Shown in pieces: positions 10,314 to 38,719 of a DNA stretch of 64,000 nucleotides (within the stretch, counting starts at the first letter, position 1; every line of letters begins with the position of its first letter). The stretch comes from Arthrobacter sp. HY1533. GTDB lineage: Bacteria; Actinomycetota; Actinomycetes; Actinomycetales; Micrococcaceae. Where the stretch lies: NCBI RefSeq assembly GCF_027568515.1, contig NZ_JANKZF010000020.1, positions 1 to 64,000 on the forward strand, read 5' to 3'. The notes beneath the pieces are model-generated. The model was not told where the DNA came from and searched no databases. It saw only the letters and a list, made by a program, of their open reading frames with translations. The translations under genes and the position numbers were made by a program.

Positions 10314-10358
10314 CGACGGCGGGGCCCTCCCAAGGAGGCGTCCCGCCGTCGTGCTTTT
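10314..10358 (+). terminator. Rho-independent terminator after glpK
   Basis: CGACGGCGGG (10314-10323) pairs with CCCGCCGTCG (10342-10351), followed by TGCTTTTCC. Confidence 0.8.
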
Positions 10359-10398: not shown

Positions 10399-10404
10399 TA
10401 AAGT
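10399..10404 (+). promoter_or_regulatory. -10 box for the leuS leader transcript
   Basis: TAAAGT ends 6 nt before the GTG of the leader peptide, so transcription should start at or within a base or two of that codon. No convincing -35 hexamer is visible. Confidence 0.55.
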
Positions 10405-10410
10405 GGGAGG

Positions 10411-10437
10411 GTGCATAACTTCCTCCTTCTTCCCTAG
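10411..10437 (+). CDS. leuS leader peptide (MHNFLLLP)
   Basis: An 8-codon ORF reads GTG CAT AAC TTC CTC CTT CTT CCC TAG. Three consecutive leucine codons, two of them CTT (uncommon in this GC-rich genome), precede the stop. The GTG sits 6 nt after a TAAAGT box, so it is probably translated from a leaderless mRNA. It is followed by two hairpins and then leuS. This is the classical layout of ribosome-mediated attenuation: when charged Leu-tRNA is low the ribosome would stall on CTC-CTT-CTT. That the peptide is made is inference. The pattern is directly visible. Confidence 0.7.
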   Translation: MHNFLLLP

Positions 10438-10456
10438 CCGCAACCACCATTGCGGC
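10437..10456 (+). promoter_or_regulatory. First hairpin of the leuS leader
   Basis: GCCGCAA (10437-10443) pairs perfectly with TTGCGGC (10450-10456) around a 6-nt loop. It starts at the leader stop codon, so a ribosome there would block it. Confidence 0.55.
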
Positions 10457-10457
10457 C

Positions 10458-10484
10458 GCCCCTTGCTGAGTCGAGGGGCTTTTG
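10458..10484 (+). terminator. Attenuator terminator upstream of leuS
   Basis: GCCCCTTG (10458-10465) pairs with CGAGGGGC (10472-10479, one G-T wobble), followed directly by TTTTG. It lies between the leader peptide and leuS, so it would stop leuS transcription when it forms. Confidence 0.6.
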
Positions 10485-10539
10485 TGTGTACGGGGACAGA
10501 AGGAACAACAAGCCAATGATGAATGAAAAGGCAGGGTAC

Positions 10540-13044
10540 GTGAGCGTGCAGTCCCAGACTGAAGAGAACAGCAAAGAGGTCGTCTACAATTTCGCCTCGA
10601 TGGAAGCCAAATGGCCGGACATCTGGGACGAGCTTAAGGTCTTCACCCCGCTTGACGACGGATCCAAGGAACGCCGCTACGTCCTTGACATGTTCCCGTA
10701 CCCCTCGGGCGACCTCCACATGGGCCACGCCGAGGCCTTCGCCATGGGAGACGTGGTCTCCCGCTACTGGCGCCAGCTGGGCTATGACGTGCTGCACCCG
10801 ATCGGCTGGGACTCCTTTGGCCTGCCCGCCGAGAACGCCGCGATCAAGCACAACGCCCACCCCAGCGAGTGGACGTACGCCAACATTGACACGCAGGCCG
10901 GCTCCTTCAAGCGCTACGCCATCTCCGTGGACTGGTCGCGCCGGCTGCAGACCTCAGACCCCGAGTACTACCGCTGGACGCAGTGGCTGTTCAAGCGCTT
11001 CCACGAGCGCGGCCTGGCGTACCGGAAGAACTCTCCCGTCAACTGGTGCCCCAAGGACCAGACAGTGCTGGCCAACGAGCAGGTCGTCAACGGCGCCTGT
11101 GAGCGCTGCGGCACCATCGTGACCAAGAAGTCCCTGAACCAGTGGTACTTCAAGATCACCGACTACGCCGACCGCCTGCTGGATGACATGGACGCGCTGC
11201 GCGGCCACTGGCCGGACCGCGTGCTGGCCATGCAGAAGAACTGGATCGGCCGCTCCGAGGGCGCCCACGTCACCTTCGTGATCGAGGCAGCCGGCGAGGA
11301 GAAGGCACAGCAGGAGCTGACGGTCTTCACCACGCGCCCGGACACCCTCTACGGTGCAACGTTCTTCGTTGTTGCCGCCGACGCACCGCTGGCACTGGAC
11401 TTGGTCACGGCCGAGCACGCCGAGGCCCTGAGCGAATACCGCGAGCAGGTCAAGGCGCTGAGCGACATCGAGCGCCAGTCCACCGAACGCCCCAAGACCG
11501 GCGTGTTCACCGGCCGCTACGCGGTCAACCCGCTGACCGGCGAAAAGCTGCCTGTCTGGGCCGCCGACTACGTGCTGGCCGACTACGGCACGGGCGCCAT
11601 CATGGCCGTCCCCGCCCACGACCAGCGCGACCTGGACTTCGCCAAGGCCTTCGGTCTGCCCGTCCGCGCCGTCCTGGACACCGGCATGGAAGACCCCGCT
11701 GAGACCGGCACCGCCACCACCGGCGAGGGCACCCTGATCAACTCCGGCGAGCTGAACGGCCTCTCGAAGTCCGAGGGCATCCCGGCCGCCATTGAAATCC
11801 TGGAAAAGCTGGGCACCGGCAAGAAGTTCGTGAACTTCCGCCTGCGCGACTGGCTGCTCTCCCGCCAGCGTTTCTGGGGCACGCCCATCCCGATCATCCA
11901 CTGCGCCGACTGTGGCGAAGTGCCTGTTCCGGATGACCAGCTGCCCGTGCGCCTGCCGGACAACCTGCGCGGCGAAGACCTGTCCCCGAAGGGCACCTCC
12001 CCGCTGGCCGCAGCTGCCGAGTGGGTCAATGTGGACTGCCCGTCCTGTGGCAAGCCCGCCAAGCGCGACACCGACACCATGGACACGTTCGTGGACTCCT
12101 CCTGGTACTTCCTGCGCTTCGTTTCCCCGCAGTTCACCGAAGGCCCGTTTGACCCGGCCAAGGTCAACGACTGGATGCCCGTGGGCCAGTACGTGGGCGG
12201 CGTGGAGCACGCCATCTTGCACCTGCTCTACGCCCGCTTCTTCACCAAGGTCATCCACGACCTCGGCCTGCTCGAAGCCACCGAGCCCTTCAGCGCACTG
12301 CTGAACCAGGGCCAGGTGCTCAACGGCGGCAAGGCCATGAGCAAGTCCCTGGGCAACGGTGTTGACCTGGGCCAGCAGCTGGACAAGTACGGCGTGGACG
12401 CCATCCGCCTCACCATGGTCTTTGCCGGCCCGCCGGAGGACGACGTCGACTGGGCGGATGTTTCGCCGGCCGGCTCCGCGAAGTTCCTGGCCCGCGCCTG
12501 GCGCCTGGGCAACGACGTGGCCAGCGAACCGGGCACCGACCCGGCCGCCGGCGACGCCGCCCTGCGCTCGCTCTCGCACCGGACCGTGCACGAGGCCAAG
12601 GCCCTGCTGGAAGGCCACAAGTTCAACGTTGTGGTCGCCAAGCTCATGGAACTCGTCAACGCCACGCGCAAGGTCATCGACTCCGGAGCCGGTCCCGCCG
12701 ACCCCGCCGTTCGCGAGGCAGCCGAAACCGTGGCCGTCATCCTGAGCCTCTTCGCGCCGTACACGGCCGAGGACATGTGGAACGCACTGGGCCACCCGGC
12801 CTCGGTGGCCAACGCAGGCTTCCCCGCCGTCGACGAATCCCTGCTGGTGCAGCAGAGCGTCACGGCCATCGTCCAGATCCAGGGCAAGCTCAAGGACCGC
12901 CTCGAGGTGTCCCCGGACATCTCCGAGGACGATCTTCGTGAGCTGGCGCTGGCCTCGGCGACCGTCCAGAAGGCACTTGACGGCCGCGGCATCCGCACCG
13001 TGATCGTGCGTGCGCCTAAGCTGGTCAATATCGTTCCCGCCTAA
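10540..13044 (+). CDS. leuS: Leucyl-tRNA synthetase
   Basis: 834 residues from GTG 10540, preceded by GCAGGG. An ATG at 10516 would add eight residues and has AAGGA about 12 nt upstream, so the start is uncertain. Class I signatures are clear: HMGH in [16 protein letters not shown] (HIGH box near residue 60) and KAMSKSLGN (KMSKS near residue 598). The CP1 editing domain occupies about 220-420, with the T-rich [19 protein letters not shown] zinc/leucine-specific region and the C-terminal anticodon-binding and tail domains follow. The enzyme charges tRNA-Leu with leucine. Expression is probably controlled by the leader-peptide attenuator just upstream. Confidence 0.97.

Positions 13045-34769: not shown

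Positions 34770-38719
<3,950 letters not shown>

Follow-up and report, generated by a model that had tools for sequence, protein, structure and literature searches.

Described attenuators of leucine and branched-chain amino acid genes

Attenuators of the leucyl-tRNA synthetase gene leuS have been predicted in Streptomyces avermitilis and S. coelicolor, as set out in parts of Seliverstov et al. 2005 (PMC1262725), and the sections of an RNA-seq-based reannotation of S. lividans that deal with leaders (2021; PMC8079986) map a leaderless leader, LeuL2 (MRAVRLLLSEPR), ahead of leuS. A preliminary description of the locus studied here had called an attenuator of leuS less familiar, which these two sources correct: leuS attenuation itself is not new, and our element joins a conserved family of leuS attenuators. 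It shares with the Streptomyces attenuator and LeuL2 the succession of a leader with Leu codons (predicted to be leaderless here too), a hairpin, a U-rich terminator and leuS (PMC1262725; PMC8079986), and it differs in its leader stop codon, which coincides with the foot of hairpin 1 in our element and falls inside hairpin 1 in Streptomyces.

In the "fast" attenuator of Corynebacterium glutamicum ilvBNC, mutational work gives an antiterminator role to the hairpin by the control codons, which adjoins the terminator with three shared nucleotides (from the part of PMC11857589 that treats it). The LEU element of actinobacterial leuA also has a leader with a Leu run; unlike the leuS element, it is described, in the passages on it, as a pseudoknot/SD-pairing system without a typical terminator (PMC1262725). 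An ilvB uORF motif in Corynebacterium (PMC10272879) and the ilvB1 attenuator of Mycobacterium tuberculosis (PMC13236596) are likewise on record, and leuS is absent from the passages on leader genes in Actinobacteria of PMC4833913. Our literature search, whose reach mostly ended short of subscription journals, found leuS attenuators described in no genus but Streptomyces. Attenuation of operons for the biosynthesis of amino acids and aminoacyl-tRNAs has reportedly been surveyed on a comparative basis. A leader peptide before a tRNA synthetase operon is also found in Escherichia coli pheM-pheST.

The leuS upstream element

In the window, by which we mean the whole stretch of 64,000 nt analysed here, a short ORF with a Leu run lies directly upstream of leuS, with an intrinsic terminator between them, as in the actinobacterial leuS attenuators. 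The parts of the element are as follows.

10399..10404, forward strand: -10-like box TAAAGT, read from the sequence; TAnnnT is kept in the parsed relatives
10411..10437, forward strand: leader ORF leuL (VHNFLLLP), GTG to TAG, probably leaderless, with a predicted transcript start
10423..10431, forward strand: Leu codons CTC CTT CTT, the last of which (10429-10431) is the proposed control codon
10432..10436, forward strand: spacer of 5 nt between the last Leu codon and hairpin 1; 5 nt in 42/58 and 4-6 nt in 53/58 parsed elements
10437..10456, forward strand: hairpin 1, GCCGCAA/TTGCGGC, from the fold and compensatory changes
10457..10457, forward strand: inter-hairpin gap of 1 nt; 0-2 nt in 58/58 parsed elements
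10458..10489, forward strand: intrinsic terminator, stem-loop 10458-10479 with tail TTTTGTGTGT, from the terminator scan, the fold and compensatory changes
10516..13044, forward strand: leuS, leucyl-tRNA synthetase (TIGR00396), with an alternative start GTG at 10540

The leader reads GTG CAT AAC TTC CTC CTT CTT CCC TAG (eight codons and a stop), its GTG (10411-10413) standing 6 nt downstream of TAAAGT. Hairpin 1 has 7 bp and takes the G of the leader stop codon as its first base, and one unpaired C separates it from an 8-bp terminator stem-loop with the tail TTTTGTGTGT. The sequence and the fold bear out the positions first proposed for the box, the GTG, the leader and both hairpins, and the terminator scan, the fold and the NCBIfam family TIGR00396 (956 bits against a cut-off of 548) agree with the earlier picture of two hairpins, the second a terminator, ahead of leuS. 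The RNA from 10411 to 10490 has a minimum free energy (MFE) of -27.6 kcal/mol, against -18.7 +/- 2.6 for shuffled sequences (z = -3.45; 0 of 200 shuffles as good). A distance of 61 nt between terminator and leuS presumes the GTG at 10540 as start, and two in-frame ATGs, at 10516 and 10519, could serve instead. The preliminary description was likewise right that CTT is seldom used, as it accounts for 12 of the 232 Leu codons in five genes of the window. Two sites in the 64 kb have TAnnnT followed after 5-8 nt by a short LLL-containing ORF, against a mean of 0.03 in 30 Markov-1 simulations; the other of the two is the leader of leuA.

The promoter call rests on the conserved -10-like box, since the promoter scan of the window gave no -35/-10 pair at its threshold for the leader. 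No Rfam family scored above its gathering score in the window, nor was a T-box recognised there; around leuS, Rfam at E<=10 returned two unrelated matches only, and a plasmid BLAST returned glpK matches only. By eye, a terminator-like inverted repeat (CGACGGCGGG...CCCGCCGTCG followed by TGCTTTT, 10314-10358), not called by the terminator scan, lies 3' of glpK; if it is a terminator, leuS would be a separate transcription unit.

The bases past the T run of the leuS terminator (10480-10489) are conserved in relatives, with tails such as TTTTGTGTGT, TTTTGCATGT, TTTTTCATGT and TTTTTTGTGC, which is more than a terminator seems to need. In the MFE fold of the window's element, the leader start pairs with the GUGUGU tail, a pairing that we rejected by eye as it does not track the tail changes in relatives. 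Two further pairings that would involve the Leu run, one with the 3' arm of the terminator and one with the leuS SD, were also dropped by eye, being of the wrong sign or not conserved.

Conservation of structure, codons and spacing

We took leuS upstream regions from 90 of the 118 genomes searched, the genome of the window included; one region had no leuS match, and the other 89 were scanned for a boxed short ORF with LL, ignoring spacing and structure, which was found in 50. From 57 elements, some of them pattern-selected, we built a covariance model with 97 positions and 15 pairs. It matches 60 of the 90 regions at E<=2.1e-4, and removing one duplicate and one unparsed element (L086) leaves 58 parsed elements. 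The genome of the window has a single model match at E<=1. The model also matches genomes whose leader is MRAVRLLLSEPR, the LeuL2 sequence given in the leader sections of the S. lividans reannotation (PMC8079986).

A leader with Leu codons and a terminator before leuS are kept in relatives, together with compensatory changes, in keeping with the reading of the preliminary description. Across the 57 aligned sequences, 62 cells are changed on both sides of a pair, against 18.4 +/- 3.8 in shuffles, none of 500 of which reaches that number, and 96% of cells are paired, against 41-59% when the pairing is slid. Changes on both sides affect 9 of the 15 model pairs, including 7 of the 8 pairs of hairpin 1; 5 of the 7 terminator pairs are invariant and therefore uninformative. 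The leaderless start predicted earlier fits a distance of 6-7 nt between box and start: TAnnnT (TAAAGT in 33) and the leader start are 6 or 7 nt apart in 58/58 parsed elements, a count partly built in, because the box is part of the model and is required by the parser.

Of the 58 parsed elements, which were gathered by a model that itself favours the 5-nt spacing, 42 have exactly 5 nt from the last Leu codon to the foot of hairpin 1, and 53 have 4-6 nt. In a set free of model and spacing, the first paired base lies at exactly 5 nt in 28/49 (5.9% of shuffles) and at 4-6 nt in 32/49 (18.6% for shuffled sequence); the remaining 17/49 come from 75-nt folds, in which a distant pair can come first, as with the window's own element, which scores 1 nt in this test from such a distant pair. 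L044 scores 7 nt in the same test.

Among 54 elements with a spacing of 3-7 nt, the last Leu codon is CTT in 44, CTA in 5, CTC in 4 and CTG in 1, against a background of 126 CTT among 1956 Leu codons in the fetched leuS coding parts. The two codons preceding it are also Leu in 44/54 and 46/54. By eye, members without the middle Leu (LFL, LPL, LRL, LSL), or with a single Leu near the hairpin (PAL, PVL), have the last Leu in place. As members without LL keep the last Leu positioned, selection seems to maintain this codon and the interval that separates it from hairpin 1. The position of the stop codon is not maintained, being at the hairpin 1 foot in short leaders and inside hairpin 1 in the long Streptomyces-type leaders. 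Hairpin 1 measures 19-62 nt in the 58 elements, and the gap to the terminator is 0 nt in 26, 1 nt in 23 and 2 nt in 9.

This geometry, with a fixed spacing between codon and hairpin and abutting hairpins of variable size, looks new. It resembles C. glutamicum ilvBNC in having the control codons just 5' of a hairpin that borders the terminator with its foot. The ilvBNC hairpins share a GCC trinucleotide, according to the portion of that study on the attenuator (PMC11857589), in contrast to the leuS helices, which are separate and 0-2 nt apart, with no shared boundary trinucleotide in the MFE folds of the 58 elements; shared bases are therefore no evident reason for a block of the terminator.

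Within the family, the model matches 78/149 genomes and 18/32 genera, leaving 71 genomes and 14 genera with no match. In a sample of the phylum, it matches 28/396 genomes with 29 matches in all, of which 23 immediately precede leuS, 3 precede leuA (another leucine gene, recognised from translated sequence) and 3 have no assigned gene, one of these last being a near copy of a leuS case whose contig ends too soon; 368 phylum genomes have no match, and strict filters lose some weak matches in the family and phylum counts. As many family and phylum genomes have no model match, leuS can do without the element, which seems to have been lost, replaced or diverged too far, in blocks, within the family.

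A scan of named genomes with a DNA pattern found at least 118 stretches. Among the 80 listed, 76 have an (extrapolated) leuS start at -23 to 132 nt past the element; of the other four, two lack leuS and leader, one is truncated where its locus ends and one matches a later part of leuS only. The record titles among the listed 76 name Arthrobacter, Pseudarthrobacter, Paenarthrobacter, Sinomonas, Nocardioides, Marmoricola, Knoellia, Ornithinimicrobium, Streptomyces, Actinacidiphila, Catenulispora, Allonocardiopsis and Phytohabitans. The pattern demanded CTT and CCGC and is therefore no argument for either. One locus of our collection, L106 (NZ_JADHDY010000020.1), is titled Sporosarcina beigongshangi and has an Arthrobacter-type leuS element; its name or assembly looks wrong.

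Antiterminator pairing and alternative readings

The preliminary description saw in this region the layout of ribosome-mediated attenuation. The Leu leader and the terminator support it; the control codons, on the other hand, lie 5 nt outside hairpin 1, and antiterminator pairing, when tested, was not found in members like the window's. In the textbook three-segment form of attenuation, which we consider unlikely for this element, stalling on Leu places the ribosome over strand 1 and frees the 3' arm of hairpin 1 for the 5' arm or the loop of the terminator. A ribosome footprint to +16 would cover strand 1, giving hairpin 1 a median probability of 0.00. In the long-leader, Streptomyces-like members (37 sequences), the hairpin 1 3' arm fits the loop of the terminator better than it fits shuffled loops (0/500 as good complementarity), and Seliverstov et al. 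2005 marked antiterminators in Streptomyces, at least in the part of the paper on these leaders (PMC1262725); such an antiterminator is undetectable in the window's element. Against it, 272/500 loop shuffles are as good in the short-leader members like the window's (98 sequences), and when partners are exchanged between species, pairing is as good or better in 500/500 permutations for the short and 361/500 for the long leaders. This candidate antiterminator, good by eye in Streptomyces-like members, was rejected, as the partner swap lends it no support and the short leaders score no better than shuffles. The energy gain from refolding with the terminator 5' part is also smaller than for shuffled upstream sequence in the two leader groups (-3.31 vs -4.34 and -2.59 vs -4.98).

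Equilibrium folding with the leader blocked by a ribosome gave a median terminator probability of 1.00 in all four states, with 1-4 of 58 elements below 0.5, and cannot discriminate because E. coli trpL also gives 0.97-1.00; it was replaced by folding before the terminator 3' arm exists. There, none of the 58 elements gains more than 0.5 in sequestration of the terminator 5' arm from the stop to the stalled state, so that an antiterminator of the classical trp type, sequestering this arm on stalling, was found in 0/58. At looser thresholds (stalled >0.5 and stop <0.5), 3/58 switch, or 2/58 if the ribosome-free state is also to be below 0.5. Pairing of the 5' arm exceeds one half in 8 (footprint to +16) or 5 (+11) of the 58 elements when stalled, in 16 at the stop and in 15 without a ribosome; the window's own element reaches 0.18 when stalled.

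The E. coli trpL control gives 0.99 stalled, 0.01 (+16) or 0.37 (+11) at the stop and 0.06 without a ribosome. Its companions thrL (0.83 stalled, 0.01 stop), leuL (0.88-0.98, 0.00) and ilvL (0.71, 0.02) pass, with the ribosome-free state of ilvL also high at 0.69. leuL has CTA Leu codons, which are rare, and, unlike the window's element, shows the strand switch. No switch appears in the automated test for pheM (0.67 stalled, 0.78 stop) or hisL (about 0.5 in all states); the automated terminator finder misplaced the trpL terminator, with which trpL shows no switch, and probably that of pheM too. The textbook switch is thus not visible in the window's element, and it is possible in the Streptomyces-like members.

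We regard it as very improbable that the leader and its terminator keep leuS transcription constantly low, with no response to leucine. Candidate codon changes at S. coelicolor ilvB were reported to be without effect, as cited in a passage of PMC1262725, which speaks for such a reading; against it, the Leu codons, the choice of CTT and their placement relative to hairpin 1 are kept across large distances, and the same layout occurs on three leuA genes of other classes. Arrest of the ribosome by the nascent leader peptide rather than by codons would suit a short, conserved peptide with LLL and is scarcely credible, as the residues around Leu vary (MRAILLLS, VHNFLLLP, METTLLLR, MVLRPALR) while the synonymous preference for CTT persists.

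Proposed mechanism

A leucine-responsive, ribosome-mediated transcription attenuator of leuS is, in our judgement, the best explanation of the element and a probable one, as predicted from comparative sequence data. Transcription would begin at or beside the GTG, with a ribosome initiating on the leaderless leader. When Leu-tRNA is plentiful, the ribosome would clear the Leu codons, terminate and leave, and the terminator would fold, ending transcripts near 10483. When the charged tRNA-Leu reading CTT is scarce, the ribosome is predicted to wait with CTT in its A site. The mRNA entrance of the ribosome lies about +12 from the P site, and with CTT occupying the A site, at +4 to +6 relative to the P site, the foot of hairpin 1 would come to stand at +12, just outside this entrance. 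Hairpin 1 would then stay folded, touching the waiting ribosome and abutting the terminator, until CTT is decoded and the ribosome must melt it; folded hairpin 1 together with the ribosome would therefore mark starvation. We posit that the parked ribosome, brought near by hairpin 1, hinders folding of the terminator, whereby leuS would be read through. As far as base pairing goes, hairpin 1 and the terminator can form at the same time, which counts against a block by a parked ribosome, and a footprint to +16 would cover the hairpin 1 foot, undoing the proposed geometry.

The same layout in ilvB and leuA leaders

The ilvB leader of the window's genome (locus L210, contig C20), MQTKLPVVIS, has its control codon 5 nt ahead of hairpin 1, which is long and branched and is followed by a short gap and a terminator. 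Among 30 ilvB loci, 16 were counted (all of the window's genus), 10 gave no parse, 2 were duplicates and 2 were mis-parsed; the parser was relaxed for this gene because a boxed leader was present in only 1/30 loci, and that one had no terminator. In these close relatives (MQTKLPVVIS and variants), the last control codon is mostly ATT, the spacing is 5 nt in 15/16 parsed leaders and the gap is 0-4 nt. One of the mis-parsed leaders, from another genus (L270), reads by eye CTT, 5 nt, GCGCGTG.

We tentatively suggest, as a generalisation to be doubted sooner than assumed, that Actinobacteria use an "abutting-hairpin" form of attenuation without an antiterminator strand, in which a control codon is followed after 5 nt by a hairpin, whatever its size, and after another 0-4 nt by a terminator, a rule common to leuS, ilvB and some leuA leaders. 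The variable stretch would be folded away and the waiting ribosome kept within reach of the polymerase, its proximity blocking the terminator. The present data take leuS attenuation beyond Streptomyces, into Micrococcaceae and further groups of actinobacteria, and the spacing rule common to leuS and ilvB is unexplained by the textbook model. If proximity acts with no alternative helix, two separate hairpins would suffice for an attenuator, and searches requiring an antiterminator would miss such attenuators.

A second leader of the putative leaderless type with LLL is present in the window at 36838-36882, where TAGGGT and 6 nt precede a 14-residue peptide with CTT CTT CTT. It stands before the leuA ORF at 36923-38719 (NCBIfam 2-isopropylmalate synthase) and resembles the LEU element and the 15-residue LeuL1 of S. 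lividans, as given in the leader sections of the reannotation (PMC8079986). Its last CTT is followed by 4 nt and then by the GCCGC also present in the leuS element.
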